Shown here: positions 45,922 to 62,854 of the stretch, piece by piece | How positions within the stretch are numbered: the first letter of the stretch is position 1 | How the letters are laid out: each line of letters begins with the position of its first letter | Source: Ctena decussata | Lineage: Eukaryota > Mollusca > Bivalvia > Lucinida > Lucinidae | Length of the DNA stretch: 64,000 nucleotides | Assembly (NCBI GenBank): GCA_963989385.1 | Contig: OZ022502.1 | Span: 9,129,001-9,193,000, forward strand | Reading direction: 5' to 3' | Program-made: the position numbers and the translations under genes | Notes under the pieces: model-generated | Databases searched by the model: none | What the model was told of the DNA's origin: nothing | Seen by the model: the letters and a program-made list of their open reading frames with translations, nothing else

Positions 45922-45925
45922 GGTC

Positions 45926-47221: not shown

Positions 47222-47225
47222 TTTC

Positions 47226-47705
47226 TTAGTCAAAAATATCGCGGTCAAATTTTAGATTTGAATATTTTTTCCTAATGGCTCTGTTTACAGAATTCTTTCT
47301 GCCTCTACCCTTTTGCAGTTTGTTGTGAACAGTTCGACGATTTGTCTTAGACTGAGTTTTTCTACGTTTCTGACTTGATTTTATACCTCCCGAAGCCAAA
47401 TGATCCAAAGCAGATTTTCCCAAAGATTTTAAAGCTGATTTACCTCTACTTTTTAAAACTTGTTTGATATTTTGACCATCCAAGATGTCGCGAAGTGCAT
47501 GAATTCCTTGATCTTTGGCTACATGTTTGATACTTTGTAAACCTGCTTTTGCAACAGGTTTTAAGATTGGCATGACCGTTCTCAAGGCAGTTTTAAACAT
47601 GGACCCTAAACCATAACCGTACTGTCTCGATACACCTCTGTAAACTGGAAAGTTATTTCCACCCGACCCTTGTTGACACACTACACCACGAGTTTGGAAA
47701 TACAT
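47226..47705 (-). CDS. Basic virion protein with FPVYRG motif
   Basis: 159 aa, very Lys/Arg-rich in the second half (QKRRKTQSKTNRR). The N-terminal part has GGNNFPVYRGVSRQYGYGLG followed by an amphipathic helix (FKTALRTVMPILKPVAKAG). This combination resembles small Polinton and adenovirus-like internal virion proteins that bind DNA or membranes; the comparison with adenovirus pVI or pX is a suggestion only. It lies between penton (8 bp upstream) and major capsid (4 bp downstream), which supports a structural role. Confidence 0.75.
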   Translation of the reverse strand: MYFQTRGVVCQQGSGGNNFPVYRGVSRQYGYGLGSMFKTALRTVMPILKPVAKAGLQSIKHVAKDQGIHALRDILDGQNIKQVLKSRGKSALKSLGKSALDHLASGGIKSSQKRRKTQSKTNRRTVHNKLQKGRGRKNSVNRAIRKKYSNLKFDRDIFD

Positions 47706-47713
47706 TTTTTTGG

Positions 47714-48556
47714 CTAATTATCTTTGAGTCTGAAATGTAACTTGATCAAAGACTTTCCCGTGATAAATGGAATATCTATTCCCGTATCGCCTTTTATACT
47801 CACGTGAACTTGATCTATGAATGATTTTGCCACCGGAACGTAATGCAAGTTGACAAACTCTTGATGAGAATGATGAGAGCGTTTTGAAATCTCAAATGGA
47901 ACAACTCGCAAAATAGGAGCAGTTATGTCACCTACGTAAGTGTAACTGGCAATATCCGAGTAAACGTACAGTTGATTATTAGCCGTGTTTAAATCTACTT
48001 CGTATCTAAAAGCATGTCTTTCGTTTCCGATGGGTCTTTCTGACATTTTTGGATTTACCCCTAATTTCTCCCCAAGTAGTTTTGGGAATATCAGTCTGAC
48101 GACTTTTGGATTGTTGTAAAATATTTTGACACGTTTACTGTTATTGCCATAACTCATTTCTATCGAAGCATTAACACTTCTCAAAGCATTTCCGAAACGT
48201 GTATCGATGATGCCTTGTATTTCTTCCACCAAATGTTGTGGACTGCTGTAATTTCCTTTGGGAATTTTCAACTCGTATTCTGCGCAGGTGTTGTCTTCCG
48301 TACAATCCTCGCTCATATTTTCTACTCCGAATTCTTGAGCTAAGACTTTATCGTAAAATCTCAAGTAGAAAAAATTGGTTTCATCCGAAATATTCATGAT
48401 TTGAGTTGGTGTAATCATTTCTACCAAAGCAACTTCCCACTTTTCTTTTTCGATGTTGATGGGATGATCTAATCTGACAGTAAAAGAACTTTGTGTATTG
48501 TCAGGAAAAGTCGTCATTGAACTGTCACTTAACAATGTCAAATAAAACCCTGTCAT
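47714..48556 (-). CDS. Minor capsid (penton) protein
   Basis: 280 aa. The opening FYLTLLSDSSMTTFPDNTQS, FTVRLDHPI and WEVALVEM pattern is characteristic of the Polinton minor capsid protein, a single jelly-roll that occupies vertices. The C-terminal part (KSFIDQVHVSIKGDTG then FITGKSLIKLHF) also fits. Its ATG overlaps the preceding stop as ATGA. Confidence 0.9.
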   Translation of the reverse strand: MTGFYLTLLSDSSMTTFPDNTQSSFTVRLDHPINIEKEKWEVALVEMITPTQIMNISDETNFFYLRFYDKVLAQEFGVENMSEDCTEDNTCAEYELKIPKGNYSSPQHLVEEIQGIIDTRFGNALRSVNASIEMSYGNNSKRVKIFYNNPKVVRLIFPKLLGEKLGVNPKMSERPIGNERHAFRYEVDLNTANNQLYVYSDIASYTYVGDITAPILRVVPFEISKRSHHSHQEFVNLHYVPVAKSFIDQVHVSIKGDTGIDIPFITGKSLIKLHFRLKDN

Positions 48557-48831
48557 GGTGCTTGTTTGGAAGTTTCTTCAAAACCACTACGTTTCCTGAA
48601 TTTTAACCCTGGGGAAGGAAGAATATAACCGACAGAGCTGCTCAATAAAATCAACCACAATTCTTTATCTGGACTTTGAAGACTGATTTGAACTAGAGAA
48701 GTGATGATGATGGCATAAACGATAATGATTTGAGATAAAAATGTCAACCTATTTTTGGGTAACTTGGCTAAACTTTCAGAAGATTGCAAAGAATCCGTGT
48801 CCCTTCTTATGACTGAAGATTTAAAATTCAT
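48553..48831 (-). CDS. Small membrane protein
   Basis: 92 aa from the first real ATG at 48831, 10 bp after the integrase stop. One strong membrane helix (residues 31-51, FLSQIIIVYAIIITSLVQIS) is followed by a second hydrophobic stretch at 58-72 (LWLILLSSSVGYILPSP). Similar LSS-x-x-GYxLP proteins sit beside the penton gene in other Polintons. It may be a membrane-active virion component. Overlaps the penton start by 4 bp. Confidence 0.75.
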   Translation of the reverse strand: MNFKSSVIRRDTDSLQSSESLAKLPKNRLTFLSQIIIVYAIIITSLVQISLQSPDKELWLILLSSSVGYILPSPGLKFRKRSGFEETSKQAP

Positions 48832-48841
48832 GTTCGTGTTT

Positions 48842-49915
48842 TTATACAAGATCGGATTCCAAAATCCAACTGTCAAATTTGGATGGATAACCTTTCCAGT
48901 GAACTTTAATTTCTTTGACCCACTTTTTCCCAACTTTTCGTTTACGACGATCTAAGACAGATTCTATTTCGTAAATTTGATCTTTGTCCACACGTTGTAA
49001 TTCTTGCGAATAAAAAGTACCTTTTATGAGTTCCCCGTCTAGATCTTCTATTTTATAGGTAACGGGACTCTGACTTTGTATGACACCCCTAACCTTAAAC
49101 AATTCTTGCGTCCAGTTTGGTAAATAACCTTTTTCAAAAGTGCGTTTTGTTTTGTTGATGCGCACAAAATCACCCACTCTTAATTCTGGACTTGCAACTT
49201 TTTGCTTTTTGCCGTACAAAATTTGGGATACTTGAACTTCATTTTTGACATCGACAGATGCAGGCGTACGTTTAATGCTGCGATGATAAGCATGATTGTA
49301 CCCGTGAACTAATTTTGGAGGTTCATCGACATATTTCAGTGTACGATTATGAGTAAAATATTTCCACATGCGACTTTTCAGAGTTCTTTGAAACCTTTCT
49401 ACAATACTTGCTTTTGTTTCTGGATTTTCTGTCGTGAAAAAATGAATATTTTTAGATTTCAAGAACTTTTGAAACTCTTTATTTTTGAATTCCGTACCTT
49501 TATCAGTTTGCAAACTTTTTGGAATACGTCCATGTTTCAAAACAGATTTAAAAGCTTCCACCAAAGTTTTTCCAGATTTGTCTTTGATCGGTACAACCCA
49601 GGCGTATTTTGAAAATACGTCTATCAAACAGAGCAAGTAACGATATTTGTCGTTATATTTTGCCATACTAGATACGTCTGCCAAATCTCCCTGCCATTGA
49701 TAATCTATTCCTGCCACCACAGTTTTGCGACGCACAAATTTTCTACGTATGGGTTTGTGCAAAGTGTAAGTTTGTTGTTTTCTCAACCAAGTTTTCACAT
49801 CGTCAAGTTTGATTTTCTTTGAAATTTTCTTTGCTGCTTTATACAAAGCTTGCAACCCCGTATATCCCACTGGACTTTTAGGATCGTAATAAAGTTTTGG
49901 TAATAATTTATTCAT
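48842..49915 (-). CDS. Retroviral-type DDE integrase with chromodomain
   Basis: 357 aa. The rve core has Asp77 (QGDLADVS), Asp138 (LQTDKGTEF) and Glu173 (ASIVERF), giving the canonical D,D(35)E spacing. The C-terminal chromodomain (about residues 305-357) ends HWKGYPSKFDSWILESDL. It inserts the linear genome into the host chromosome; the 6-bp duplication around this element is the footprint expected. The start ATG overlaps the previous stop (ATGA). I do not see a full HHCC zinc motif at the N-terminus. All catalytic residues are present. Confidence 0.95.
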   Translation of the reverse strand: MNKLLPKLYYDPKSPVGYTGLQALYKAAKKISKKIKLDDVKTWLRKQQTYTLHKPIRRKFVRRKTVVAGIDYQWQGDLADVSSMAKYNDKYRYLLCLIDVFSKYAWVVPIKDKSGKTLVEAFKSVLKHGRIPKSLQTDKGTEFKNKEFQKFLKSKNIHFFTTENPETKASIVERFQRTLKSRMWKYFTHNRTLKYVDEPPKLVHGYNHAYHRSIKRTPASVDVKNEVQVSQILYGKKQKVASPELRVGDFVRINKTKRTFEKGYLPNWTQELFKVRGVIQSQSPVTYKIEDLDGELIKGTFYSQELQRVDKDQIYEIESVLDRRKRKVGKKWVKEIKVHWKGYPSKFDSWILESDLV

Positions 49916-50736
49916 TGTTCATCATAAGATAACCATTTTCTGGGTGATTCAAACAGTTCTTCTTTTATAGGTTTGATAGAACTGGGTGTAAACAGTTCGT
50001 CTCTGATATGTTTTCTAGTGGCAGACAAACTTTGAGATAAGTCTTTCTTGATGTGTTTTCTAACCGATTGTGTAACGGGACTTGTTCTTTTTTTAAGAGT
50101 AGGCATGCGTCGATGTTTGGTTTTAGGAGTGACATACTCTTCTTCATCTTCGTGCTGAAGAGGAGTACGATGCATCCATTCCCATCGTTTCTTATTTCCC
50201 ACAAAATCTTGAGGCACGTTCATGTCTCTGAGAGCCTCAGCAAAAGGTTCCCAACCCCTGGGCTCAGTGTCTTTTCTCTGTCTTAAAACATCATTGACTA
50301 AATCTATGATATTAGACCCTGCAACCGGTTTGCCATACATCTTAACCGTTCCGTCTTCGTCCCAAGATAAGTTAGGATTATTTTCTAACCAAGATATCAA
50401 TAATTTAGCTTTCTTTCGCATCGTGGTAGGAACACTATCAAAAATACGTTGATTAATTTTCGATTCAGGCTCTACTGGGAGAGAAAGTTTTGTTTCTGTC
50501 AGTGCTTTGCGATGTGCCGTTTTAAATTTATGTAAAGTTTGACCAAACAATTGAGATTTTTCTGCCTCTGACAAATCTTCGTTGGCCATGACCGAAGACA
50601 AGTCTCTTTGAAGACTGGCCGTCGCAGAAACATTTGGATCGGGTGGAAGTCTTGGTTTTTGAATTTGTTCTTCTTTCCAGCGTTTCATGTCTTCCCAAAG
50701 TTTAAATGGTACCACGGCCATTTTACGCCCTTCCAT
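49912..50736 (-). CDS. Conserved Polinton protein, unknown function
   Basis: 274 aa. The middle contains LISWLENNPNLSWDEDG then GKPVAGSNIIDLVNDVLRQR then GWEPFAEALRDMNVPQDFVGN. This block recurs in Polinton-type elements and has no enzyme motif that I recognise. The N-terminus begins MAVVPFKLWEDM after an alternative first Met. The C-terminal quarter is Lys/Ser-rich with repeated R-KHI-x-x-x-L segments. Location upstream of the integrase with an ATGA overlap implies co-expression. Structural or nucleoprotein roles are possible. Confidence 0.7.
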   Translation of the reverse strand: MEGRKMAVVPFKLWEDMKRWKEEQIQKPRLPPDPNVSATASLQRDLSSVMANEDLSEAEKSQLFGQTLHKFKTAHRKALTETKLSLPVEPESKINQRIFDSVPTTMRKKAKLLISWLENNPNLSWDEDGTVKMYGKPVAGSNIIDLVNDVLRQRKDTEPRGWEPFAEALRDMNVPQDFVGNKKRWEWMHRTPLQHEDEEEYVTPKTKHRRMPTLKKRTSPVTQSVRKHIKKDLSQSLSATRKHIRDELFTPSSIKPIKEELFESPRKWLSYDEQ

Positions 50737-50747
50737 TGCAATTTTTT

Positions 50748-51119
50748 TTACTGACCAAGAATAGATCCTAAGACTGAACCAAGCAAAGGTTTTAAAAGTA
50801 AACCCAGGAGTGCACCACCTTTCTGATTGAGAATTTTTTTCTTGTTTGCTAGTGCAACACGTTTTGTAGACAATAATCGAATATCATTCTTCCTAGAACG
50901 TAATTGTTCTTTCTGAGCTTTTGTGAGTTTGACATTGCCTTTTATAAGATTTAAACAACATTCCCCTACACAGTCTAATATCTCTTTTGGACAATCATTG
51001 ACAATTTTTTGACGAAACCGATATGGAATGTTACATGGTCCTTCCAGAAAAGGACCATACTTTTTAATCAGTGAACCTCTTTTCTTTTTGATTTGTGTTC
51101 TTTTCTTACGTGCAGCCAT
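50748..51119 (-). CDS. Small basic protein with C-terminal hydrophobic GG segment
   Basis: 123 aa from the ATG at 51119 (upstream codons lack ATG). Lys/Arg-rich throughout; the end reads KKKILNQKGGALLGLLLKPL then a short hydrophobic Gly-rich tail. The RLL...L-x-x-K+K-x-LxQxGG-hydrophobic arrangement recurs in Polintons and resembles short core or membrane-lytic virion peptides. Its own TATA box (51166-51175) lies over the stop codon of the preceding gene. Confidence 0.7.
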   Translation of the reverse strand: MAARKKRTQIKKKRGSLIKKYGPFLEGPCNIPYRFRQKIVNDCPKEILDCVGECCLNLIKGNVKLTKAQKEQLRSRKNDIRLLSTKRVALANKKKILNQKGGALLGLLLKPLLGSVLGSILGQ

Positions 51120-51165
51120 GATAGCAGTCAAGAATTAAACTAGTAAAATATCATGTTAACCAAGT

Positions 51166-51175
51166 CCTTTTATAG
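51166..51175 (-). promoter_or_regulatory. TATA box overlapping the core-protein stop codon
   Basis: CTATAAAAGG on the minus strand includes the TAA stop of the core-protein gene and precedes the 123-aa basic gene by about 47 bp. Confidence 0.6.
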
Positions 51176-52096
51176 TGAAAGTTTACGTTTAGCCAACATC
51201 TGTTTCATGGCAGCTTCAAATCCATGTTTTCTGGCAGTACGAAGATATTCGTTTGCAGGAGAAGAACTCCTTCGAGGAGAAGCCCTTAGAGGAGAAAATC
51301 TAGAAATTTCTAGAGCAGGTGATTTTGCAGCAGTGCGTCTTTCACCAATTTTTCTGAGACTAGAGTTTGGAGTAGAAAACTGAGTAGAAAATGGAGAAGG
51401 TGTTTTTGCAGGAGTGAATCTTTCACCTATTTTTCTGATACTTGAACTTGGAGTAGAAAATCGAGTAGAAAATGGACTTGGAGTTCTTAGACTAGAGTTT
51501 GGAGTAGAAGGAGTAAATGGACTTGGAGTTCTTGCAGTTGACGGTCCTGCAACAGGAGATGGAGGTTTTCTAGGTTTCTTAATTCTTACAGTGACAAACT
51601 TATCGTTCACTTTTATTTTTCTCCTTGATTTAGTCTTAGGGGATTTTTTCCTCTGAGTTTTTTTCTTTGGAGATTTTTTCTTGCCAGTTTTTTTCTTAGA
51701 CTTTTTAGGACCTTTTCTACCCACTTTCTTTTTCTGAGAAAACCGTCTAAGTATTTTATTACCGTCCCAACGAATGAGAGATCTGATTATCACCCCACCA
51801 AAAAACCCACCGCCACCAGGTTTTAGAATGATTTCTCGTTTTGTATCTGCATTTACCAAAGGACTTGCTAGTTTTCTAACATCGTCTTTGCGTTTGTCCA
51901 TGAATTTTTGAGTTTGTTTTGGTAATTTCATTTTATTTTCAGCTATTTTTCTAGCTGCTAAAGAAAACCATTTGATCATTTCCATCAACCCGGCATTAAG
52001 CAAAGTTTTTCTTTTGTTCGAATCATGCTCTCTACTCAAATTGTAGAGAGCCCTGATCAAGTTTGCCGATGCTTTTTGAGCCATGTCTGGTTTCAT
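51170..52096 (-). CDS. Basic Ser/Pro-repeat core protein
   Basis: 308 aa from the ATG at 52096. Three parts are visible: a helical N-terminus; ILKPGGGGFFGGVIIRSLIR at about residue 95-115; and a long Lys/Ser/Pro region with K-K-S-P-K-x-K repeats, resembling linker-histone tails. It ends in about four repeats of TPSPFS-x-x-FSTP-x-SS-x-RKIGER. Strongly positive, so probably a DNA-condensing core protein, acting as histone or adenovirus pVII analogues do. This is inferred from composition. Confidence 0.75.
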   Translation of the reverse strand: MKPDMAQKASANLIRALYNLSREHDSNKRKTLLNAGLMEMIKWFSLAARKIAENKMKLPKQTQKFMDKRKDDVRKLASPLVNADTKREIILKPGGGGFFGGVIIRSLIRWDGNKILRRFSQKKKVGRKGPKKSKKKTGKKKSPKKKTQRKKSPKTKSRRKIKVNDKFVTVRIKKPRKPPSPVAGPSTARTPSPFTPSTPNSSLRTPSPFSTRFSTPSSSIRKIGERFTPAKTPSPFSTQFSTPNSSLRKIGERRTAAKSPALEISRFSPLRASPRRSSSPANEYLRTARKHGFEAAMKQMLAKRKLSL

Positions 52097-52124
52097 TCTG
52101 ATCCATGTAAGACCAAACACACCA

Positions 52125-52131
52125 TTTTATA
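52125..52131 (-). promoter_or_regulatory. TATA box overlapping the ATPase stop codon
   Basis: TATAAAA on the minus strand contains the TAA stop of the ATPase (52127-52129). A TCAGA initiator-like site about 32 bp downstream abuts the ATG of the core-protein gene. Confidence 0.5.
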
Positions 52132-52810
52132 CTGGAAAATACACAACTGGACCTTGTTGATCCGATTTTGTATACCAGTTTGTAAAAATATCTGTTCTAA
52201 ACCTCAAATGATTTGGTGTGTCTGGTTTTAAATCAATCAGTAAATAACCGTGTGGCTTAGAAGTGGCATCGTTGAAGGCAGACATCAAGTGTGGAGCTTG
52301 AAGTTGTTGTGCCAAAACTTTAATTTGCATTTTGTCTCTTGGACTTTGAAACAAAATCAAGTAATGGGCATTCAAACTGATGGTACGTGTCGATTTACTC
52401 TGCTGAAACAAGTTTTGTGTGATGTACACAACACTTGCATTTCTGTGATGACCTTTCCTCGTGAACCAAAGTTTAATTTTTTCTTCGTCTTTATCGCCCA
52501 ACATATCGTCAAAGACAATCAAGTGAGTTTCACTCGTGTCTGTGACAATATCGTCGTCGTCATTTGGAATTCCTAAAATAAATCTGATGTTTAAATCTTT
52601 GCGTTCTTGCAAGATATTGTACACAGGTTGCCATTCTTTGTAACACCACACGATACGTTGTGGTAAAATATCAAACAAGTCTTCTTTGTACTGAATCAGT
52701 TTTTTAACAAATTCAGTTTTTCCCGATCCACTTGGACCCGATATAAAAATATTAGCAGGATGTTTAAAAAACAAACTACCAATATTTTCGTCTTGAACTG
52801 TTACCGACAT
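52127..52810 (-). CDS. Genome-packaging ATPase (FtsK/HerA, A32-like)
   Basis: 227 aa starting at the ATG at 52810; the upstream in-frame extension is low-complexity promoter sequence. Walker A GPSGSGKT lies at 25-32 and Walker B HLIVFDD at 96-102, with a likely sensor YITQNLF at about 127-133. By family it pumps genomic DNA into the preformed capsid. A TATA-like TATATATA (52852-52859) and a TCATTT initiator about 33 bp downstream fit its start. Confidence 0.93.
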   Translation of the reverse strand: MSVTVQDENIGSLFFKHPANIFISGPSGSGKTEFVKKLIQYKEDLFDILPQRIVWCYKEWQPVYNILQERKDLNIRFILGIPNDDDDIVTDTSETHLIVFDDMLGDKDEEKIKLWFTRKGHHRNASVVYITQNLFQQSKSTRTISLNAHYLILFQSPRDKMQIKVLAQQLQAPHLMSAFNDATSKPHGYLLIDLKPDTPNHLRFRTDIFTNWYTKSDQQGPVVYFPV

Positions 52811-52851
52811 GATTGAAAGATAAAATGAGAAAGAATAATGAAAGACATATG

Positions 52852-52859
52852 TATATATA
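52852..52859 (-). promoter_or_regulatory. TATA box of the ATPase gene
   Basis: TATATATA on the minus strand, 33 bp before a TCATTT initiator; predicted leader about 16 nt. Confidence 0.5.
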
Positions 52860-52867
52860 ACATATTT

Positions 52868-52873
52868 TTTATT
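52868..52873 (-). terminator. Polyadenylation signal for polymerase
   Basis: AATAAA on the minus strand about 62 nt after the stop of the polymerase tail frame and upstream of the ATPase promoter. Confidence 0.5.
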
Positions 52874-52934
52874 TTTTACAAACAACATATTTTACTAACT
52901 GTTTCACAACAGTCTCTGATCTGATTTTCTTTGT

Positions 52935-55900
52935 TTACAGTACATATCCATACGGAACAGTTTCTCCACTTTTTAAAATCACACGTTTGTCATAAGTAAA
53001 TCTATATGTCTTAGATTGTCTCTCAGTAGTAATTTTTCTGTCTTTATGTTTTCTTATACGGTGCTGATATTCCACAGATTCTTGAAAGTCCCTCTTCTCA
53101 CTATGGGCCCATTCCATCATGTTGTAGAATGGATTACTTGTGAAGTATTGTAATCCAGGGTCAGTCCTTTGACTTTACAGGTAGACTTGCGTTTCCCAGT
53201 ATCGTGCTCCACATACTCGTAGCCATAATTCTTCGGTCCCATACCCACAAACTTGGTGATTTTCGCAGTAGGTAGTTCGTCTGTCCATTCGCCGAGTCTG
53301 TTGTTGATGATCTCTGGATTCCATAATTCTGGTTTGTGAATGTAGATGACAGAATCCGTATCGAAGTACAACACACGTTTGTCAAGTTGATGCAGGACAC
53401 TGTATAACTTCAGTCTGGCTTGTGCTGTCACAAAGGATCCTACCACCACGTTGCTGCAAGCATGAGGTTCTACAATCGATTCCAGATCTTCCCAGTTGAC
53501 TAACAAAAACTCTTCTCCAAATACTTCGACGTTCTTCACTTTCTTCAATGGATTAGTCACCAGTTCAAAGTAGTCAGAAGGATCTGACACATATTCTGTT
53601 TTGGTCATGTTGTCTCTCTGTGCTAATTTTCCCCACAAACTGTTTAAACTGATCTTGCTGATTCCACGTCGACCTTTGTTCTTTTCCACCTTCTCTAGTC
53701 TGATACCTTCTGCTTCGAAATAATCCTGTTTGAATTTGATCTTGTCTAATTCCGTCTTGCACCAGTCGGGATAGCCACTTGACTCTTGTTTAATCTTCAG
53801 GAAAGTATCGATATATCCAGCAAAGATTCCACCTTGTCCAGTTGACTTGTCGTACTGTGAAGATTGGGGAAAATGCCATATTTCGTACACATCTTTCAGC
53901 TGGTAACCCAGTTTCATCGCCTCAAACAATTCGATGCTCACCCAAGTTCCCACTAATTCCCTGTCTTCTTCTCTGTCGTGAGTACATAATTTCGAATTGT
54001 CAGATGTCTCTGCACAACTTCTACAGAGTGGAAACAGTAATTTGTTGTTGCACTTGTACGGCAATACCGGATGATACAAGTTTCTGGGTGGTAACACTTT
54101 ACATTTAATCAGTCCAAAATATTGATGTATATTATCTCTGTCGATGTCTTCTTGTGAATAGATTTCTGGATGTCCAATAGGGAAGATTCCGTACTTGCAG
54201 ATGTAAGGATAGAGTGAACACACATCGATATACTTAATTTCCTCGTCTCCTTCAATTTCGTAGAACAGTCTTGTAGAATTCGTACGTCCTCCAAAAAGCG
54301 CATCTCTGGCTTTGAGTGGATCCAAATTGGTAAATTCTGCATCCACCATCTCCCTAAAATCTTTGTCGTCTTGATAATATTGGTCGTAATCGCATTCCCA
54401 CATTTCTATCACTTGATACCCAGCTCTTTTCAATTTCTCGGTCTTCTCCACAGTCTGTTTGTATAGCTGGTACATCGTCTGGCAGTTGTAAGTATTGATC
54501 TTAGTTCTGTCGGGGAAATGCTTGGGACACCCATGCCAGTAACATCCATGGAACTCGTACACTGTTTCTTTTTCTGGATCGTACCCATCCACATAATGTC
54601 CAAAAACTTTCTGTTCACCACCATTCAAAGCGTGACGAATTTGGATGTGATTCTTTCTAGCCACGGCTTGAATCCAGCGTACAGCTTTGATAGAATACTT
54701 CTTTTGGTTGGGATAGCCTTCTGGTGGAATGATGGCCACAGAGTTTTCAGGCATGTGATTCTTTCTCCATACTTGGGAACAAGCTTGAGCGATCGTGCAT
54801 GCATTAGCAAAAGGATCCAACTCGCTGATATCCATCGATTGTTTTCTAAAACATGCACAACCTCTCCTCAGGATATCCACATCGCTGCGACAGTATTCTT
54901 CCATTTCACGTCTGAAGTCAAAGATGGCATTGGATTCCACTTTCTGCTTGTGCCATTCCAGGAAAGCTTCTCTGTCTTTGACCGACATCTGTCCAGGATT
55001 ATACATCTCCACGGGAAAGTAAGGTCCCACGTAATTCTGGTTGGCATCAACATTTGCCAAATGTGGGAAATAGCCTTTCTTCATCTCTGTCAATCCAAAG
55101 GTATCTGGAAAATTGGCTAATCTCATATGCAGAAAATGATACGAGTCCAAGAACTTGACTTTGGCAGCAGTCATCGTCACGATAGTATTTCCATTCATGA
55201 TCACATCGGGCTTAAAAGTACCATTTTCTAGTATGTAGCGTAAAATAAATTGTCCATCATATCCTCCAAAATTATGTGCAATGACAGTCACTCCTTCATT
55301 TTCTTTTCTAAATAACCAGGAACAGAAATCTGATAACGTATTTTCACCTTCAAAGATCATTTCTCTTCCAAACTGACTACAAATGTCACAATACTGGTCT
55401 ACAGGCAAATTAACGCAATGGTCACACGCTTTGTTTGTGAACTTATTACAAATTTTACATGGCTGTTCAATTGGTAAATCCATACACTGATCACAAGCTC
55501 TATGTGCAATACAAAAGTTGACAATATGTTCGCCAGAGTCTTGCTTGGATTCAAAGTCAAAAAATATGAATTGAGGTTGAATAACGGTACCTTTCTCTTC
55601 ATCGATGATATCGTCCTCCTCGGCATCTTCTTGCAACACTTCGGTCTTGGGTTTGCACACGTAAGGTTGAATATAACATTGATGTTCGGCTCCAACAATC
55701 AGTTTACAAAACTTACATTTTTTCTGTCCTGGACACACGTGATTTCTTTTATTATTTACAATCCTATTTCCACACTTCTCACAATTATGCACAAGTTGAC
55801 AAATAGATTTTTTCTGTCCTGGTTTGACTAATGTATGATTAGCAAAACAAGATGAACTATGAAAAGTTCTCTTACATTTTGTACAGTACTGATTGTGTTC

Positions 55901-57031
55901 GTGAAGACATGCCATTGCACTGTAACAACTAGTACATCCATTCGAACAAGCATGATCCTCTCTGTTGCTAAATCCCTTGTCACAAAACTCACAATAATAA
56001 CGGCATCCTTGAAATCCTTTGACATTGGTAATGGTGTCATAGTGATCTGTGCCATTGAAATAAATATGAATCACTTTTGTTTTGTCACCAGGTTTAAATC
56101 CAAGTGGAAACAATAATCCGTCTTTGGGATGCTGTGAATGTACTTTGATCAAATAATCAGGAGCTAACACAGTTTGAATTTTCTTGTATTCTTCAAATCC
56201 ACAAGGTTGATTGTGAGGAATCTTAGCACGATCTAATAATTTCATGGCTTCTCTAGTTTGTAGTGATTTGTTTGATTTTCGAATATGTTCCCAAGTCTTC
56301 TTCCATGAGTCAGATGTGTCCCTGTCGGCATGATGTTTTCCTACCACAACAGCTCTGGCCATACACATGACATCTTTGGTGTTGTTGATTTGAACGATAC
56401 TAGTTTTCATCTTTCTCATATTGCGTGATTCAAAATAAAGTCCATGGTGTAATGCCTTTCTTCCACTTCCAGTTGGTAACTTGGTGTGTGTCACTTCCAA
56501 ACTCATCTGTCCATCGTTGATTTTGAAATCTTCATTGGATTGTAACACTTTCTCAATTTCTTGAGTCAAAGATTCCCCAGTCAGACTCGTTACATCTGTG
56601 AAAGGTACAAAGATTCCTAATTTCAGTCCGGGATGGTAAATGCTCATTCGAATCCTGTCATTGCCTTGAGCTTGAGAATGGGTCTTGATGTCATCCACCA
56701 GCTGTTGAAACATCCGAGGTACAAATTCCAACGGTGATACATCTTCTGGAAATTTATTGACATCCACATTGTACACATTGGCTCTTGTTCTGAAACGTCT
56801 CGACTCACGTTCTCTGACAGGCTTGATCACATAGTACTGTTGGTAATCGTCTTCTTCATCGTCCGAATAAATCACCATAGGCCTTTTTCTTGGTGGTGAC
56901 ACCTCATCTTCAGATTCTTCGCTGTCGGAATAATCCACAAGTTTCACCTTCTTTGGCGATGGTAACTCGTCCTCCTCAGAGTCTGATGAAGTGGGTGGGG
57001 TACGTATTCTCTTCCAATGTCTCTTTGGCAT
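52935..57031 (-). CDS. Protein-primed family B DNA polymerase, frame-broken near C-terminus
   Basis: The main frame (53117-57031) is 1304 aa. It starts with a Ser/Asp/Glu-rich tail with basic PKKVK-type clusters, then has a Cys/His zinc region (about 340-450), ExoI FFDFES (about 490), ExoII AHNFGGYDGQF (about 585) and ExoIII YCRSDVDIL (about 715). An EFHGCYWHGCP insert (about 830) follows, then motif A SLYPY (about 938), motif B NSLWG (about 1130) and motif C YFDTDSV (about 1224). It replicates the linear element. After 53117 the expected tail, ending YDKRV...PYGY, continues in the -1 frame from about 53140 to 52935. A one-base-type indel has therefore cut off about 65 residues, unless it is a sequencing error or a frameshift site. 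Confidence 0.93.
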
Positions 57032-57083
57032 GTTGTCTTGTCACTGTTCAAACTCAGAATGCAAGGAGATCTGAATATTTGAC

Positions 57084-57091
57084 TTATATAC
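57084..57091 (-). promoter_or_regulatory. TATA box of the polymerase gene
   Basis: TATATAAG on the minus strand. An initiator-like GCATTC lies about 31 bp downstream and the ATG 60 bp downstream. Confidence 0.6.
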
Positions 57092-57104
57092 CTAATTTAT
57101 ACAA

Positions 57105-57490
57105 GATTAGGCAGGCGAGATACATAGTATTTGACTTAACAGGCGAGACAACAGGAATTTTCGTGGTACAGGCGAGACATGGGCTTTACGGAATTCTTAT
57201 TAACTATCAGGGTGGACTACATGCTTTATGGAAATCTTGTGATACAGGCAAGATACATAGTATTTGCTTTAACAGGCGAGACATGGGCTTTACGGAATTT
57301 TTGTGGTACAGGCGAGACATGGGCTTTACGGAATTTTTGTAGTAAGGCGAGACAACAGTCTTAAGGAATTTTTCATTAACTAACAGGCATGACTACATGC
57401 TATATGGAATTCTTATCACCAGGCGAGACACATACAATTCTTGTGCTACAGGCGAGACACTGAGCTTTACGGAATTTTTGTTATTTTTAA
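57105..57490. repeat. CAGGCGAGAC imperfect tandem array
   Basis: About eleven units of 28-40 bp. Most begin CAGGCGAGAC or a close variant and many continue ATGGGCTTTACGGAATTTTT. The array starts 14 bp upstream of the polymerase TATA box, so an enhancer or replication-related role is plausible. Short open frames across it are by-products of the repeat. Confidence 0.85.
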
Positions 57491-58212
57491 AAGAAGTGCA
57501 AGAAGAGTGTGCTGTTCAGCACCTTGTTCTTCCCCGGTCGGTTACCCTGTGCCTGGGAAGCCCTGGCGATTTGAAGCCATATCTACATGATCACAAGTCC
57601 TGAATGTCACTGTGGACCAGAGACCTGCCAGCGGAGGTTCAGTTTACTGGGATAGTGTCCCGACCCCTTAAGCCATAAGGCTTCTACTGTTTCACATGTA
57701 ATCGATAGACTTCGCATCTGCGGGCCCAGGCGGTATAACCGTTGTGCACACCAGTTCCAGTCCAGTGGTGACCGGCAAACCAGCAATATTAATATGCGAG
57801 TTCCCAATATATATACTTAAACATAAACCAGTTTACTTGAGACAAGATTGGACATTTGCATATCATATATCTTATTTCAATAAAGGTCATGTTACTATTT
57901 ATAGTAACACATTTCAAAATATAAAAATTAATTAGAGAATAATAAAATCTACATTTTGGTGTTTATTTTATCAAAATCGGCCGAAAAATAACAAAGTTAT
58001 TCAATTTTTCATATTATGGTGTTATTACAAGGGAGGTAAATCTGGATTGACTTTGTTAATTCTATAAATAGACAAAACAAGTAATAGCTTTCAGAAAAAA
58101 TGATACAAATGAAAAGTGAATATGTGTATGGTATAAGAACTTCTGTTATGAGTATATTTTGTATGACTTTGTAACTCTTAAATACAAAAATATAAGTTTG
58201 TCGGGGCATGTG

Positions 58213-58640
58213 CACTGCGCATGCGCGGAATATGGAGGGTAAGAAAACTGTAATAACTCCAGATTGCCTTGATGGATTTTCATAATTCTTTTTTTATTGG
58301 AAAGAACTGGTCAACGCCTACCAAACGAAATTAAAATAAATTGTTACACTGCGCATGCGCGGAATATGGAGGGTAAGAAAACTGTAATAACTCCAGATTG
58401 CCTCGATGGATTTTCATAATTCTTTTTTCATTTGAAAGAACTGGTCAACGCCTACCAAAAAATATTTCAAAATAAATTGTTACACTGCGCATGCGCGGAA
58501 TATGGAGAGTAAGAAATCTATAATAACTCCAGATTGCCTCGATGGATTTTCATAATTCTTTTTTCATTTGAAAGAACTGGTCAAGGCCTACCAAAAAATA
58601 TTTCAAAATAATTAACCACAATGTGCATGCAGAGAATCAA
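58213..58640 (+). repeat. Three 135-bp tandem repeats plus partial fourth
   Basis: Units begin CACTGCGCATGCGCGGAATA at 58213, 58347 and 58483 (134 and 136 bp apart); a degraded fourth start lies near 58617. Units share AACTCCAGATTGCCT and GGTCAACGCCTACC. Located directly upstream of the first plus-strand gene. Confidence 0.9.
58216..58496. promoter_or_regulatory. Three palindromic NRF1-type sites
   Basis: TGCGCATGCGC occurs at 58216-58226, 58350-58360 and 58486-58496. It matches the NRF1 consensus YGCGCAYGCGCR. A TATA-like ATATATAA follows at about 58643. Binding is not shown; the match is to a known vertebrate and insect motif. Confidence 0.6.
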
Positions 58641-58689
58641 GAGATATATAATGTGTACATTTCATTTTTGCAGCTCATAAAGTTTCAAG

Positions 58690-59349
58690 ATGTCTGAAGA
58701 ACTAGTCGATCTGGGTGTGTTACCAACTGAAATTAGAAGTATAATCTACTCAAGGCTCGTCAATATTTCGAGGAAAAGTAAAAAGTTTAGAGACGAACTT
58801 CAACTGACGTGGTTTAACATGTGTTTTCAAAGAGCTCTGTCTTGCAACAATTTTTACCAGAGCCTAGCACAGCTATTATATGACATCGATGGAATATCGA
58901 ATCTTGACCAGAACATGAGATTATACTTTCACAAACGCATGATGGAAGTGTTGAAGGATACTCATTCTAGACATGACCGATGGATCTTTACGATTTACAA
59001 TTTCAACAAGGAAACATGTGAACAGTTTTTTGAAAACTTGTTTCCTTTCCATTATGACATTTACGTACATGGAAAAATCGTGAATGGACATCTGACTGGG
59101 CTTCTAGTATTCTTTCAGAGTTTAGCATTTTTTTACTACTTACCATTTCTTTACCAGTTAAATTTTCCTGCACCTATGAACGATTTGTTATTATCAACCT
59201 GGGAAGAGCATATAAACAGTTTGCATTGTTGTGATGTGTCATTTGGAAACAGAGACGCATATGAACAAGTTATCGAGAGTGAAGAGAGATTATTACCACT
59301 AAGTTTTCCAACAGTCTATTCAGACTTTCTACTTGGAATAAAACAATGA
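58690..59349 (+). CDS. Accessory protein, possible Bcl-2-like
   Basis: 219 aa, helical, no signal peptide. I do not recognise it with certainty. Three features resemble a Bcl-2 fold: LAQLLYDIDG (about 60) as a weak BH3-like stretch; FFENLF followed by HGKIVNGHLTGLLVFFQSLA (about 118-150) in the place of BH1 and helix 5; and STWEEHINSL (about 178) in the place of BH2. The invariant NWGR is not present as such. If correct, it would act on apoptosis in the infected cell. Start chosen at the first ATG after a TATA-like element. Overlaps the next gene by ATGA. Confidence 0.6.
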   Translation: MSEELVDLGVLPTEIRSIIYSRLVNISRKSKKFRDELQLTWFNMCFQRALSCNNFYQSLAQLLYDIDGISNLDQNMRLYFHKRMMEVLKDTHSRHDRWIFTIYNFNKETCEQFFENLFPFHYDIYVHGKIVNGHLTGLLVFFQSLAFFYYLPFLYQLNFPAPMNDLLLSTWEEHINSLHCCDVSFGNRDAYEQVIESEERLLPLSFPTVYSDFLLGIKQ

Positions 59350-59804
59350 ACGTGATCAAGAAATCTCCTCCAGTATCGTTAGGTCGAATTTTACAGTTTG
59401 ACATTTATCGAGGATCACTTGAACACACGCTATCCTTACAACCTACAAGTTCAGAATTTCTGAAGTCAAAAGATGGACTCAGAACGTGGTTGGGACGATA
59501 TGAAACATTCATGACCTTTCGACAAGCCATGTGTGAAACAGCTTTGATAATGAACACTATATTAGACGCATCGCCTGTGAAGTATAAGCAATGGCTACTT
59601 CATGTGGCAAACAACGAGGACGTGGTTACTTACCTTTGCAACGTACTCAAAGCTGTTGAAGAGGCTTCGAGAGAACAATCTATGGATATCGACTCAACAA
59701 CAACAACAACAGAAAATATGGAAATTGAACAGGCATCACAGGAAGAACCAATGGATATTGATATGGATGAATTGACTGCAAAATTTGAAGCTTTGACACT
59801 ATAA
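59346..59804 (+). CDS. Small accessory protein with LHVANN motif (paralogue 1)
   Basis: 152 aa. The N-terminal part has LGRILQFDIYRGSL and the centre KQWLLHVANNEDVVTYL. The tail is acidic with two MDID repeats (EQSMDID, EEPMDID) around a Thr run. The first part is related to the next gene. No known family. Start codon overlaps the preceding stop. Confidence 0.65.
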   Translation: MNVIKKSPPVSLGRILQFDIYRGSLEHTLSLQPTSSEFLKSKDGLRTWLGRYETFMTFRQAMCETALIMNTILDASPVKYKQWLLHVANNEDVVTYLCNVLKAVEEASREQSMDIDSTTTTTENMEIEQASQEEPMDIDMDELTAKFEALTL

Positions 59805-59850
59805 AGTGGAACTGTTTGTCTCTTGCAAAATCATTTATCTTACGGCAAGC

Positions 59851-60144
59851 ATGGAGACAAAGTGGTTTGAAATTCCTCTGACACAAATTCTGAGATTTAG
59901 ACCTTACAGAAAATTACTAGTTTGTGTTTACATACTACATTCACATGAGAACATTACTTTAGATGAAATTCAGATGAAATTAAACACAGAAGAATATTTC
60001 AAAGATTTTAAAAGACTCTGGTGTTCGTGTGCGAAACAGGAATTATCAGAGGAGACGGTCTTTACATTTGACAACTGGAAACTTCATGTGGCCAACAATT
60101 CAAAAGTGATTGACTATCTACAGTCGAAGACAAGGCGTATATAA
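59851..60144 (+). CDS. Small accessory protein with LHVANN motif (paralogue 2)
   Basis: 97 aa from the ATG at 59851 (good context, A at -3 and G at +4). The longer open frame upstream has only GTG. It shares TQILRFRPYRKLL and NWKLHVANNSKVIDYL with the preceding gene, but lacks its acidic tail. It has two Cys in the middle (WCSCAK). Function unknown. Its stop codon lies inside the TATA box of the next gene. Confidence 0.6.
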   Translation: METKWFEIPLTQILRFRPYRKLLVCVYILHSHENITLDEIQMKLNTEEYFKDFKRLWCSCAKQELSEETVFTFDNWKLHVANNSKVIDYLQSKTRRI

Positions 60145-60145
60145 G
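60138..60145 (+). promoter_or_regulatory. TATA box overlapping the stop of the LHVANN gene
   Basis: TATATAAG contains the TAA stop codon (60142-60144). A TCATTT initiator at 60167-60172 is 31 bp downstream (first T to A+1) and the zinc-knuckle ATG is at 60198. Confidence 0.65.
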
Positions 60146-60197
60146 GACTACAACTAGATCTGCGAGTCATTTCAGCTCTGACTTTCAAACTGTCAAG

Positions 60198-60830
60198 ATG
60201 GAAAGTAAACCTGTGGATCCAAGACTTAATAAATACAGTGATGCCAACAGTATTTATTATCACTGCACAGCTTTGAAGAAACTTTTGAAAGAGAATGACA
60301 GAAAATTAATTCAGCCATTGGAAATTTCACTAAAAGAACAAGGCCTGTTGAAACCACCCTATGGTTATTGCTACAATTGTGGGTCGGTGGATCATTGGAC
60401 TGCCTCGTGTACCGAGGAGAAGAAGAAAACTACTACAAATAAACCACCCAATGGGAATTGTTACAACTGTGGTTCACCTGATCATTGGACTGCCTCATGT
60501 ACCGAGGAGAAGAAGAAAACTACAAAGAAGCCACCCTATGGGACTTGTTACAACTGTGGCTCGCCTGATCACTGGCTACCCTCATGTCCTCATACCGACT
60601 TACAAGATGAAAGCTCGGGATCACCACAACCGGCCGAGAAGTCAGAAACTACGAGGAAAAGACGCCATACTGATGATGACTCTGATGTACCCAGTAAAAA
60701 GAAGTCAAGAACCGCTTCACCAGAACCGACAAAACCTACTGCTAGACAACATAAGAAGAAGAAATACTGCGTTGTGTGCAAAGAAGACACTCATATGATG
60801 AAAAACTGTCCTGAAATAGTGAAAAACTAG
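60198..60830 (+). CDS. Four-zinc-knuckle (CCHC) protein
   Basis: 210 aa. Four canonical C-x2-C-x4-H-x4-C knuckles at 58-71, 88-101, 117-130 and 191-204. The first three are near-identical (CYNCGSPDHWTASC) and separated by TEEKKKTT linkers; the DNA shows recent tandem copying with a unit of about 90 bp. A Ser/Lys-rich linker with RKRRH and KKKSR clusters precedes the fourth knuckle and may be nuclear-targeting. Such knuckles bind single-stranded nucleic acid, as in retroviral nucleocapsid or CNBP. The role in the element is unknown. Confidence 0.85.
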   Translation: MESKPVDPRLNKYSDANSIYYHCTALKKLLKENDRKLIQPLEISLKEQGLLKPPYGYCYNCGSVDHWTASCTEEKKKTTTNKPPNGNCYNCGSPDHWTASCTEEKKKTTKKPPYGTCYNCGSPDHWLPSCPHTDLQDESSGSPQPAEKSETTRKRRHTDDDSDVPSKKKSRTASPEPTKPTARQHKKKKYCVVCKEDTHMMKNCPEIVKN

Positions 60831-60951
60831 TGACTAGATAAGAGACCTAGTGGATAGACAATATCTAAACGATATTGTGTGTCTACTGGACAGTGACTAC
60901 TAATGTGTTCATAATGGATTAGTTTTCATAGTTACATGTAAGTTTGTATTC

Positions 60952-60957
60952 AATAAA
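60952..60957 (+). terminator. Polyadenylation signal of the plus-strand block
   Basis: AATAAA about 120 nt after the zinc-knuckle stop. This block thus appears to use ordinary polyadenylation, unlike the three genes to its right. Confidence 0.65.
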
Positions 60958-61021
60958 ATTGTTTTTAAAGTATTGGTCTTTGTTATTTCATAAGGTTACT
61001 CTTTAAACGAAAGAGTTGGGT

Positions 61022-61037
61022 AGCCCTGAAAAGGGCT
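61022..61037 (-). terminator. Histone-type 3' stem-loop of the 64-aa gene
   Basis: On the minus strand AGCCCTTTTCAGGGCT forms a 6-bp stem with a TTTC loop, preceded by CCCAAAC and followed by ACCCA. These flanks are as in metazoan replication-dependent histone mRNAs. It lies 24 nt after the TAA. A possible downstream element is TTTAAAGAG. Confidence 0.8.
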
Positions 61038-61060
61038 GTTTGGGTGTTCTAAGTCTTCAC

Positions 61061-61255
61061 TTACTGTGAAGACTTAGACACAGGTTTTACAATCCCCACA
61101 ACAGGATTCGTCTTGGATAAGTTAATCCCTCTCCTCCTCATAAATACTTCAAACCCCATCTTATTTTGCTGCCTTTCAACTTCTTTCCAATCTTTCTTCT
61201 TAAAAGCTTTACACAGTCGGCTGAGATTAAAAGGGATATACTTTGACAAACCCAT
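61061..61255 (-). CDS. Small basic protein with histone-like transcription unit
   Basis: 64 aa, about one quarter Lys/Arg, with a helical centre (LCKAFKKKDWKEVERQQNKM). No family recognised; not a histone by sequence. What supports it as a gene is the transcription unit: TATATATA and a perfect TCATTC initiator 30 bp apart, predicted leader about 10 nt, ATG at 61255, TAA at 61061 and a histone stem-loop 24 nt later. The predicted mRNA is only about 250 nt. Separate promoter elements (CCAAT, octamer-like) lie upstream. Confidence 0.6.
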   Translation of the reverse strand: MGLSKYIPFNLSRLCKAFKKKDWKEVERQQNKMGFEVFMRRRGINLSKTNPVVGIVKPVSKSSQ

Positions 61256-61360
61256 ATTTGAGAATGAAGTTGTTAAAGGCAGTTAAATATATATATTGAC
61301 TCATGGCGGACGTGAAAGAGAGCATAGTCTCTTGACCAATCAAAACTATGCAAAGTAGTT
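61256..61360 (-). promoter_or_regulatory. Histone-like promoter of the 64-aa gene
   Basis: On the minus strand, from far to near: octamer-like CTTTGCAT (61348-61355), ATTGG inverted CCAAT (61336-61340), TATATATA from 61295 and TCATTC at 61262-61267 with predicted +1 at 61265. Octamer plus CCAAT plus TATA is the arrangement of many histone H2B promoters. Confidence 0.5.
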
Positions 61361-61412
61361 ATGGGGTTTTATGCAACAATCAACAAAGTATTTCTTTCTG
61401 ATAAGTTGTGGT

Positions 61413-61428
61413 GGCCCTGAAAAGGGCC
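61413..61428 (-). terminator. Histone-type 3' stem-loop of the 109-aa gene
   Basis: On the minus strand GGCCCTTTTCAGGGCC, a perfect match to the GGYYY-TTTTCA-RRRCC consensus, is followed by ACCAC. Fifteen bases after the stem a purine-rich ATCAGAAAGAAATA resembles the U7 snRNA-binding downstream element. It lies 25 nt after the stop at 61453. Confidence 0.88.
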
Positions 61429-61452
61429 GTTTTGAGGTTTTAATAAACCTTT

Positions 61453-61782
61453 CTATGAGCAGGGACACCGCGAGGGCCTGCCACCACAAGCTGGACAGCG
61501 TACTGACCACCTCGTGTACGTCACCGTCCTCCCTGTTGGCAAGTAGAATGGTGGCTGGTCCGCCTCCCTCTCCCAATCTTCACCGGATGGCCGTTCTTCA
61601 GGCTCTTGCTTCACTTCTTCGGGCTCTTGCTTCACCACAGCCATCTGTCTGTCGACCGTCACCATCCTTCTTACGATGCCTATCAGCTCTACGAGCCTCT
61701 CTGCACTCTCCATCACAGACCTAGTCTGTGCCTCCAAAGCATCGAGATATTCGTCGCTCAACATCTTCTCTGTGTATAGCAT
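61453..61782 (-). CDS. Coiled-coil/Cys protein with histone-type mRNA end
   Basis: 109 aa. The N-terminal half is a predicted amphipathic coil (ALEAQTRSVMESAERLVELI). The centre repeats VKQEPEE twice, each a match to the SUMO acceptor pattern psi-K-x-E. The C-terminus has a Cys cluster CPACGGRPSRCPC that could bind metal. No family recognised. It is transcribed away from the 135-aa gene from a shared 136-bp region. GC content is visibly higher than in neighbouring genes. Confidence 0.6.
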   Translation of the reverse strand: MLYTEKMLSDEYLDALEAQTRSVMESAERLVELIGIVRRMVTVDRQMAVVKQEPEEVKQEPEERPSGEDWEREADQPPFYLPTGRTVTYTRWSVRCPACGGRPSRCPCS

Positions 61783-61918
61783 AAAGACAATGTGACGAAG
61801 TGGGTCAGTGTTCCAGTATTTATTCTCTCAGCACCGACCTGAAAGAAAGCACTTTTCGAAGTAGGTCAATCCGGTCTTGGGAGTATAAAACGGCACTGAC
61901 CTACTTACAACTTCAGTC
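61783..61918. promoter_or_regulatory. Bidirectional promoter with inverted AGGTCA-type sites
   Basis: It separates two divergent start codons. AAGTGGGTCAGTG (61798-61810) and CACTGACCTACTT (61894-61906) are inverted copies with one mismatch. Two more half-sites lie at 61835-61840 (CGACCT) and 61863-61868 (AGGTCA). The rightward TATAAAA is at 61884-61890 and the TCAGTC initiator at 61913-61918 abuts the ATG. The leftward TATA is weak (TAAATA near 61817-61822). AGGTCA is the nuclear-receptor half-site; binding is not shown. Confidence 0.65.
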
Positions 61919-62326
61919 ATGGAGCCACTACTGACCTTAGACGATCTTATGAAAGAACCAGACTTTCTATCGACGGCAATTAATACAATTGCTACTGATG
62001 GATCGTTAACTCAACAACAACAACCGAACGTGCAGACCTATTACTACCACCCACAGCAATCACAACTGCAACAAACACAGCCACAGGTGTCACAGCCAAA
62101 GACGGGAGCTGTAGAAGTCTTGCTCAAAGAACTCAATGATCTCAAGAAAAGAGTACAGCAGTTAGAGGACCAAAAGCAACAACGTCCCATGGACTTAAAT
62201 CCGATCAGAATACCATTAACTATAGAAGTAATGACACCAGAATCGTCTGTGACAGTACCAACTCAAAATGGACTTGGGTCGCATAGCAAGAACATAGATA
62301 ATTCAAAAAGAAAGAAGAAACAATAG
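61919..62326 (+). CDS. Gln-rich coiled-coil protein with histone-type mRNA end
   Basis: 135 aa. An acidic opening (LLTLDDLMKEPDFL), a Gln-rich stretch (about 34-58), a leucine-heptad coil (VEVLLKELNDLKKRVQQLE, about 66-88) and a basic end (KRKKKQ) resembling a nuclear localisation signal. This composition suggests a transcription-associated or nuclear regulatory protein; no family recognised. The predicted leader is only about 4 nt unless Met11 is used. A histone stem-loop follows 29 nt after the stop. Confidence 0.65.
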   Translation: MEPLLTLDDLMKEPDFLSTAINTIATDGSLTQQQQPNVQTYYYHPQQSQLQQTQPQVSQPKTGAVEVLLKELNDLKKRVQQLEDQKQQRPMDLNPIRIPLTIEVMTPESSVTVPTQNGLGSHSKNIDNSKRKKKQ

Positions 62327-62355
62327 ATTCTTCTTAGCTATAACCACAAAAAAAC

Positions 62356-62371
62356 AGTCCTTTTCAGGACT
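62356..62371 (+). terminator. Histone-type 3' stem-loop of the 135-aa gene
   Basis: AGTCCTTTTCAGGACT (6-bp stem, TTTC loop) followed by ACCA and, 12 bases later, ATCAGAAAGAATA, almost the same downstream element as after the 61413 stem-loop. Confidence 0.87.
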
Positions 62372-62421
62372 ACCAATTACATCAGAAAGAATACCCTACT
62401 GATTGCCCTAATACTAAGGAA

Positions 62422-62854
62422 GCTATAGAGTTATGCCTCTGGTATAGTGAGGTCTTGAGATACAGGGCCAAGAGACTCATAGCAGACGCATATTACTGTA
62501 TAGCCTCTTAAGACATCTCCTATGCCATTTAACATAGACTTTTACCCTGAAAAAAGACTAAGTTATTTCAAACTAGCCTTTTCAAGTTTACTAAAGCGGT
62601 GTCATCTATGGGGACTCCCGGCCCGAGACTGCCCCAGGCTGTGGACTTTTAGCATATTACTGTATAGCCTCTTAAGACATCTCCTATGCCATTTAACATA
62701 GACTTTTACCCTGAAAAAAGACTAAGTTATTTCAAACTAGCCTTTTCAAGTTTACTAAAGCGGTGTCATCTATGGGGACTCCCGGCCCGAGACTGCCCCA
62801 GGCTGTGGACTTAGTCTCCGGCCGGGAGTCCCCAGAGTGTCACCCTTTACTACT
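62422..62854. repeat. Polinton terminal inverted repeat, right (433 bp)
   Basis: Complement of the left terminal repeat, lengthened by one extra 164-bp internal tandem copy (269 + 164 = 433). Confidence 0.95.
62489..62816 (+). repeat. 164-bp tandem duplication inside the right TIR
   Basis: CATATTACTGTATAGCCTC begins at 62489 and again at 62653. The two units are essentially identical until each leaves the repeat at GTGGACTT. The left TIR has only one. Confidence 0.92.

Follow-up and report, generated by a model that had tools for sequence, protein, structure and literature searches.

Histone-type 3′ stem-loops and promoter elements at a three-gene module of a Polinton lineage, probably from a bivalve

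How Polintons become active is, to our knowledge, still an open question. The Polinton at the right end of the window described here (the window being the whole stretch of DNA that was analysed, 64 kb, G000:C5:9129001-9193000, from a source genome of 1.66 Gb) has three genes that end in a histone-type stem-loop. In histone mRNA metabolism, 3′ ends formed by SLBP and U7 lead to non-polyadenylated mRNA, which is made and kept in S phase. Would a mobile element make use of that system? The answer to which the sequence points, with a probability of roughly 0.7, is that this Polinton lineage would run a module of three genes, p64, p109, and p135, on the replication-dependent histone programme of its host.

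The element and its three-gene module

The Polinton extends over 44092..62854 (no strand assigned). It is bounded by inverted terminal repeats and a 6-bp target duplication, CGCATC, and matches in Pfam identify the core genes PolB, rve integrase with chromodomain, A32-type (packaging) ATPase, and adenovirus-type protease, the last of these matches being short and weak (23.5 bits versus a cut-off of 21.3). A candidate double jelly-roll major capsid protein at 45926-47221 was picked by position and by eye and is without Pfam match. The host is probably a bivalve: several of the nearest named animal relatives of the PolB are oyster proteins, and for a further gene, with 120 of its 135 matches listed, all organism-named homologs belong to Mya or Mizuhopecten.

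The module comprises the coding sequences of p64 (64 amino acids, 61061..61255, minus strand), p109 (109 amino acids, 61453..61782, minus strand), and p135 (135 amino acids, 61919..62326, plus strand). None of them belongs to a Pfam family, and a Pfam match to histones was obtained for none of the three proteins. Four homologs of p64 are found among public proteins, at 75-80% identity; its predicted structure is of low confidence, with a mean pLDDT of 57.4. By eye, p135 is acidic at its start and basic in its tail, with leucine heptads, and p109 contains the motif VKQEPEE twice and is Cys-rich at its end. As a guess, these features would fit nuclear regulators.

Stem-loops behind non-histone genes and their conservation

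Behind p64, the stem-loop AGCCCTTTTCAGGGCT is located at 61022..61037 on the minus strand (29.6 bits, E 2.2e-5 with the Rfam model RF00032, Histone3), behind p109, GGCCCTTTTCAGGGCC at 61413..61428 on the minus strand (39.0 bits, E 6.8e-9), and behind p135, AGTCCTTTTCAGGACT at 62356..62371 on the plus strand (27.4 bits, E 1.5e-4). All three are 16 nt long, with a 6-bp stem, a TTTC loop, G:C as the second and T:A as the top pair, and an ACC flank, and in each case the whole length of RF00032 is covered. The preliminary description had given the same positions, strands, and structural features, which are confirmed by both the sequence and RF00032. Its spacings of 24, 25, and 29 nt after the stop codons stand for p64 and p109; for p135, the distance from the stop codon to the first stem base is 30 nt, the earlier figures having mixed two ways of counting. 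The near-identical element that it had noted after two of the three stem-loops was found again as the purine element ATCAGAAAGAA, at 61392..61402 (minus strand) after that of p109 and at 62381..62391 (plus strand) after that of p135. In the window, no AGAAAGA follows the p64 stem-loop.

The yardstick for these 3′ ends is provided by the histone genes of the host, which form a tandem array of more than 100 units of 5865 bp on contig 14 (150 of 530 candidates scored). One unit, L089, encodes H3, H4, H2B, H2A, and H1, and an RF00032 match is present for each of them; three of these five stem-loops are above the RF00032 gathering score of 34 bits, and those of H4 (32.7) and H1 (32.3) are below it. 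That only p109 passes this score among the Polinton stem-loops is consequently no objection to the other two, since two host histone genes miss it as well. The host stem starts 29-34 nt past the stop codon in the four genes of this unit measured by ORF scan, and the H1 stem-loop has the TTTC loop of the Polinton and a stem that is one pair away from that of p135. Downstream elements vary greatly within the unit, GAAAGAA occurring in that of H4 only, so that the lack of AGAAAGA at p64 is not decisive, most of the host elements being without it. Comparison with the host's own histone genes, which the preliminary description had envisaged, thus reveals the same type of 3′ end, matched by RF00032, in the Polinton and in its host.

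Hairpins of this kind might arise by chance, for which it could be argued that two of the three remain under the gathering score. With the strict stem-loop pattern plus AC flank, however, three were observed in 64 kb, all of them at the Polinton module, versus 0.067 expected on both strands, a value derived from 60 simulated first-order Markov sequences with four hits in total. A binomial across the 19 Polinton ORFs gives about 1e-12 for three stem-loops, of which only the order of magnitude counts because the rate rests on those four simulated hits. Without the flank rule, four matches are found in the window (one of them elsewhere, at 27484) versus 0.84 expected. A cruder pattern search of the window, with three mismatches, picked up none of the three stem-loops and yielded two matches elsewhere, which is no more than chance. 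In an alignment of nine stem-loops, namely the three of the Polinton, five of host histone genes, and a further one, two of the six pairs change on both sides, and 98.1% of the cells pair, with at most 61.1% in slid versions; the stems of p64, p109, p135, and the host histones differ by paired, compensated changes. By the null model and by the conservation in the genomic copies, chance is refuted as an explanation, and its probability is negligible.

As to these copies, at least 150 matches to p135 are present in the same genome (150 of 172 candidates were scored). For p64, there are 144 (149 of 149 candidates scored), and five of these rows contain an internal stop. The sample studied consists of 70 of the 150 p135 loci, namely 30 close copies (A), 19 copies of a subfamily B with 48-54% amino acid identity, and 21 others (C). 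Where the coding 3′ end was found, a stem-loop is present behind p135 in 67 of 70, behind p109 in 62 of 65, and behind p64 in 60 of 62 sampled copies, as counted by a rule of at least five of six pairs, which is slightly loose in that it does not require G:C as the second pair. The preliminary description had named the absence of the stem-loops from otherwise conserved orthologous genes of related elements as evidence against it; they are kept there. AGAAAGA is found no more than 29 nt from the stem-loop in 60/70 copies of p135, 52/65 of p109, and 0/62 of p64. One gene without p64 stem-loop (L082) is situated at the very edge of the retrieved piece.

When the window is compared with the B copies, p64 has a median dS of 0.91 and a dN of 0.027; dS is near saturation for p135, where it was not computable in 8 of 19 pairs, and for p109, where this applies to 7 of 17. 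In the p135 3′ UTR, the window and B agree in the stem-loop, the ACC, and the AGAAAGA block, while most of the first 19 bases as well as the dozen bases behind the downstream element are unmatched. At p109 and p64, the flanks around the stem-loop are conserved too, the stem-loop not being distinct from its surroundings, and the footprint argument therefore rests on p135. These data bear on the view that the signals are unused relics of host histone DNA, captured when the element inserted into the histone array or recombined with it, with which the close match to the histone promoters and stem-loops of the host would agree. Relics would decay, however, and the signals of the three genes persist at high dS, those in the p135 UTR between unrelated flanks; furthermore, compensated changes set the stems of the three genes apart and the coding sequences are non-histone, which makes this origin highly improbable. 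Extremely improbable, in turn, is a function of the stem-loops as decoys for the host SLBP, by which the histone supply of the host would be upset, and not as signals for the Polinton mRNAs. Three stem-loops per element, in copies well over a hundred, could be adduced in its favour, but hundreds of them are present in the host array by itself. Each Polinton stem-loop is, moreover, placed at histone spacing behind a conserved coding sequence, two of them with a purine element, and histone-type promoters would be unexpected for a decoy.

Outside this lineage, two other Polinton types of the same genome, represented by one element each and covered for about 9 kb to the left and right of PolB, contained no stem-loop, promoter motif, or RF00032 match; their PolB proteins are about 65% and 55% identical to Mya PolB (39 matches; 34 of 2065 candidates scored). 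Judged from this small sample, the trait is that of a single Polinton lineage and not of Polintons at large. In viral contigs, no relative was obtained from the PolB search or from the p64 alignment, the PolB alignment search giving two weak loci in these contigs and eight loci in bacterial assemblies; judged by their look, the latter eight are mostly contaminants. RF00032 had no match in eight of these ten outside PolB loci (L010-L017, with L009 and L018 left out), which is a weak test on short contigs. The stem-loop pattern has two matches in viral contigs.

Promoter elements

The promoter elements had not been noted in the preliminary description. The p109 and p135 genes are divergent and share an upstream sequence of 136 bp. 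In the direction of p135, it contains the element AAGTAGGTCAATCC (61859..61872, plus strand), which is identical to that of host H2A and of which 11 of 14 nt are contiguous with H2B, followed by a TATA box at 61884..61890 (plus strand) in the arrangement AAGTAGGTCAATCC-N11-TATAAAA. In the host H2A promoter, the same 14 bases are followed by N10 and TATATAA, and in the H2B promoter, TAGGTCAATCC is followed by N13 and TATATAG; the p135 promoter of subfamily B has kept the 14 bases, with 10 nt to TATATAA. In the direction of p109, AGGTCGG (61834..61840, minus strand) is the counterpart of AGGTCCG in host H4 and is accompanied by the TATA-like AATAAATA (61817..61824, minus strand). For p64, an inverted CCAAT box, TTTTGATTGG, is found at 61336..61345 (minus strand), in the context GTTTTGATTGG that it also has in host H2A, together with a TATA box at 61288..61295 (minus strand), TATATA preceding the ATG by 38 and 40 nt.

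Upstream of p135, all 30 A copies have TAGGTCAATCC, as do 18/19 B copies and 17/21 C copies; it is followed by TATA at a distance of 8-14 nt in 30 A, 18 B, and 15 C copies. Across the genome, TAGGTCAATCC-N8-16-TATAWA occurs at 382 places, versus one for the reversed control. Among the 100 rows listed of these 382, which all lie before contig 14 with its histone array, 99 (98 distinct sites) have the Polinton-type spacer and one is other (C6:11515528); by arithmetic from the histone unit, in which H2A and H2B both match, and from the copy number, most of the other 282 places would be H2A and H2B. The 14-nt TTCTATCAGGTCCG, exactly as in host H4, stands just upstream of the TATA-like box in the p109 promoter of 18/19 B copies; the exact form is found in 0/30 A and 0/21 C copies, of which 23 and 12, respectively, have a loose form, and the window copy is without this 14-nt match, which is a property of subfamily B. 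GATTGG is present in the p64 promoter of 61/61 copies.

The length of an exact match alone is weak evidence, because 15 of 1276 window tiles share at least 14 nt with some host histone promoter, four of the 15 coming from the p135 promoter. The promoter argument is carried by position, spacing, conservation, and the genome-wide count. A second 14-mer shared by the p135 promoter and H4, TGACCTACTTACAA, was rejected as it is not conserved in subfamily B, and an octamer-like TTTGCAT upstream of p64 (28/29 A, 6/16 B, and 10/16 C copies) was set aside. By their motifs, the Polinton promoters resemble host histone promoters, that of p135 apparently being of the H2A/H2B type, that of p109 of the H4 type, and that of p64 having CCAAT; a host-type promoter is recognized for p135 by motif and spacing and, more weakly, for p109 and p64. 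The elements, their conservation, and their match to the host histone genes are observed features of this lineage. With host-histone-like promoter elements present, a coupling to the histone programme is more likely than it would be from the 3′ ends alone.

Proposed mechanism and comparison with known systems

According to the proposed scheme, p64, p109, and p135, which are single open reading frames with histone-like TATA promoters, would be transcribed by the host RNA polymerase II together with histone-gene activators. The stem-loop would be bound by SLBP, and cleavage immediately behind it would fall to the U7 snRNP and its nuclease. The products would be short non-polyadenylated mRNAs, which are translated and destroyed like histone mRNAs, and because of this handling the module would be expressed mainly in S phase. 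Further expression would occur wherever the host stores histone mRNA, e.g., in eggs. The three proteins may be regulators that act before or during replication of the element. It is rather probable that the mobile element has taken over the whole histone expression programme, with H2A/H2B- and H4-type promoters as well as SLBP/U7 3′ ends, for a set of non-histone genes of its own, by which the integrated provirus would be turned on in each S phase. In Hydractinia, S-phase expression goes with the stem-loop and a purine element (PMC5011920), and in a Lucina clam all histone mRNAs studied are reported to have the stem-loop and only some to have purine elements nearby (PMC6210712).

Histone-type 3′ processing might also serve a benefit other than timing, such as storage and translation in the oocyte and early embryo for passage through the germ line, the export of mRNA that has no introns, compact 3′ ends where genes are crowded, or evasion of poly(A)-dependent surveillance. 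The module is compact indeed, the p64 stem-loop (61022) lying about 70 nt from the AATAAA of a convergent zinc-knuckle gene, and maternal storage of histone mRNA is established (2026 preprint, PMC12803260). For 3′-end advantages alone, however, histone-type promoters would be superfluous, and they point to the timing programme, while expression in oocytes and in S phase would be mutually compatible; a benefit of this other kind is therefore considered possible but doubtful.

The distribution of poly(A) signals also bears on the S-phase reading. In the window, no AATAAA or ATTAAA is found within 300 nt after p64 and p135; p109 has ATTAAA 9 nt after the stop codon, ahead of the stem-loop, and the zinc-knuckle gene has AATAAA 122 nt after its stop codon. 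Among the copies, AATAAA or ATTAAA occurs 60-260 nt after the coding sequence in 36/62 for p64, 18/70 for p135 (16 of these within the 19 B copies), and 9/65 for p109, so that poly(A) ends would be possible as a fall-back. PolB lacks a stem-loop, and its AATAAA lies 244 nt past the stop codon, for which reason the argument of the preliminary description that the DNA polymerase would find nucleotides in host S phase is an indirect one. A search for U7 snRNA with RF00066 gave no match among the candidates scored (65 of 429586), nor in any control genome. By a sequence pattern with an Sm site, 120 places were found, versus 179 in the reversed control, and none of 20 that were folded is U7-like.

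The preliminary description knew of no report of such stem-loops in Polintons, which needs correcting, as six histone 3′UTR stem-loops were already counted in a scan of 8300 Polinton-like virus and virophage genomes with Rfam (PMC12220804). In the accessible part of that paper, none of the six is in its cryptophyte elements, and neither location nor gene link nor discussion is given. Wording on histone stem-loops appears, within the accessible part of PMC5799277, in the references only; an adintovirus-related preprint (PMC11071296) has no mention of stem-loop, hairpin, polyadenylation, or S phase, and its two mentions of histones concern proteins. No description was found in the open-access literature of the position of such stem-loops after conserved genes that are not histones, of their conservation, or of the matching promoters of histone type. 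If the S-phase reading is true, this would be the first analysed case in which the structure of histone genes is mimicked by a virus or transposon and a natural case of non-histone genes under the SLBP/U7 system. A replication-coupled cassette would be a direct, testable answer to the question of Polinton activation for one lineage. The relevant transcripts would be expected in dividing cells, within the poly(A)-minus fraction that is discarded by ordinary poly(A)-selected RNA-seq. The same signals are worth seeking in other elements, with the six matches counted in the accessible text of PMC12220804 as first candidates.

In comparison with known systems, the element shares with Polintons, Mavericks, and adintoviruses the terminal inverted repeats, the 6-bp target duplication, PolB, rve integrase plus chromodomain, packaging-type ATPase, and adenovirus-type protease, and it differs from them in the histone-type signals of its right-end module. 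Rfam matches to the histone stem-loop are common to it and the Polinton-like viruses of PMC12220804, where, in the portion available, they are counted and not tied to genes. With the Histone3 model itself, the likeness lies in the full-length match of all three stem-loops and the difference in the gathering score, which is exceeded by p109 only, host H4 and H1 being likewise below it. Metazoan replication-dependent histone genes, as represented by host unit L089, have in common with the module short intronless genes, the same stem-loop with ACC- or ACA-type flank, and a AGGTCAATCC-type promoter box with TATA at matching spacing. The stem-loop distance is 29-34 nt in the host (four genes) versus 24-30 nt in the Polinton, and, unlike histone genes, those of the Polinton encode non-histone proteins and are scattered in a mobile element; a further difference is that p64 is without AGAAAGA, although most host downstream elements lack it too.

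Composition of the stem-loop module

Two sampled genomic copies of the module, L084 and L088, combine a p135 gene of subfamily A (96% identity) with a p109 gene of subfamily B (51-52%), as if the two subfamilies recombined inside the module. Should transcription of p135 begin about 30 nt downstream of its TATA box, the window coordinates would leave this gene a 5' leader of only a few nucleotides (61915-61919).

Further features of the Polinton and of other Polinton types

A further gene of the Polinton (window 60198-60830) encodes three CCHC zinc knuckles, which lie within internal repeats of about 87-90 nt. The right terminal repeat contains a perfect tandem duplication of 161 nt (62488-62812), both copies of which fall inside stretches complementary to the left terminal repeat. 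Long hairpins are found inside the terminal repeat (62756-62849) and outside the Polinton (63685-63755); their matches to microRNA families are weak and far under the cut-off. In each of two other Polinton types, of which one element each was examined, a tRNA match is located less than 9 kb from the PolB gene (L113, 5688-5760; L114, 6378-6450); these matches may be SINEs.

A tandem array with histone-type stem-loops

The genome scan with RF00032, in which the best 75 of 321393 candidates were scored, gave matches on contig C4 in a tandem array of units of about 1.95 kb (C4:9057373-9220948, loci L002-L008), with one match of 32.2 bits per unit, and at a further locus grouped with it (C4:238952, L001). 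The stem-loop alignment reveals a single C.A mismatch in the stem of the array's stem-loop. In L001 and L002, the two loci whose ORFs were read, the match is preceded by the gene of a 106-amino acid non-histone protein, for which neither a Pfam family above the cut-off nor a relative in the PDB was found. It has 135 homologs and, among the matches listed, all those with an organism name are from bivalves. This is possibly a second non-histone family with histone-type 3' ends, in this case host-encoded.
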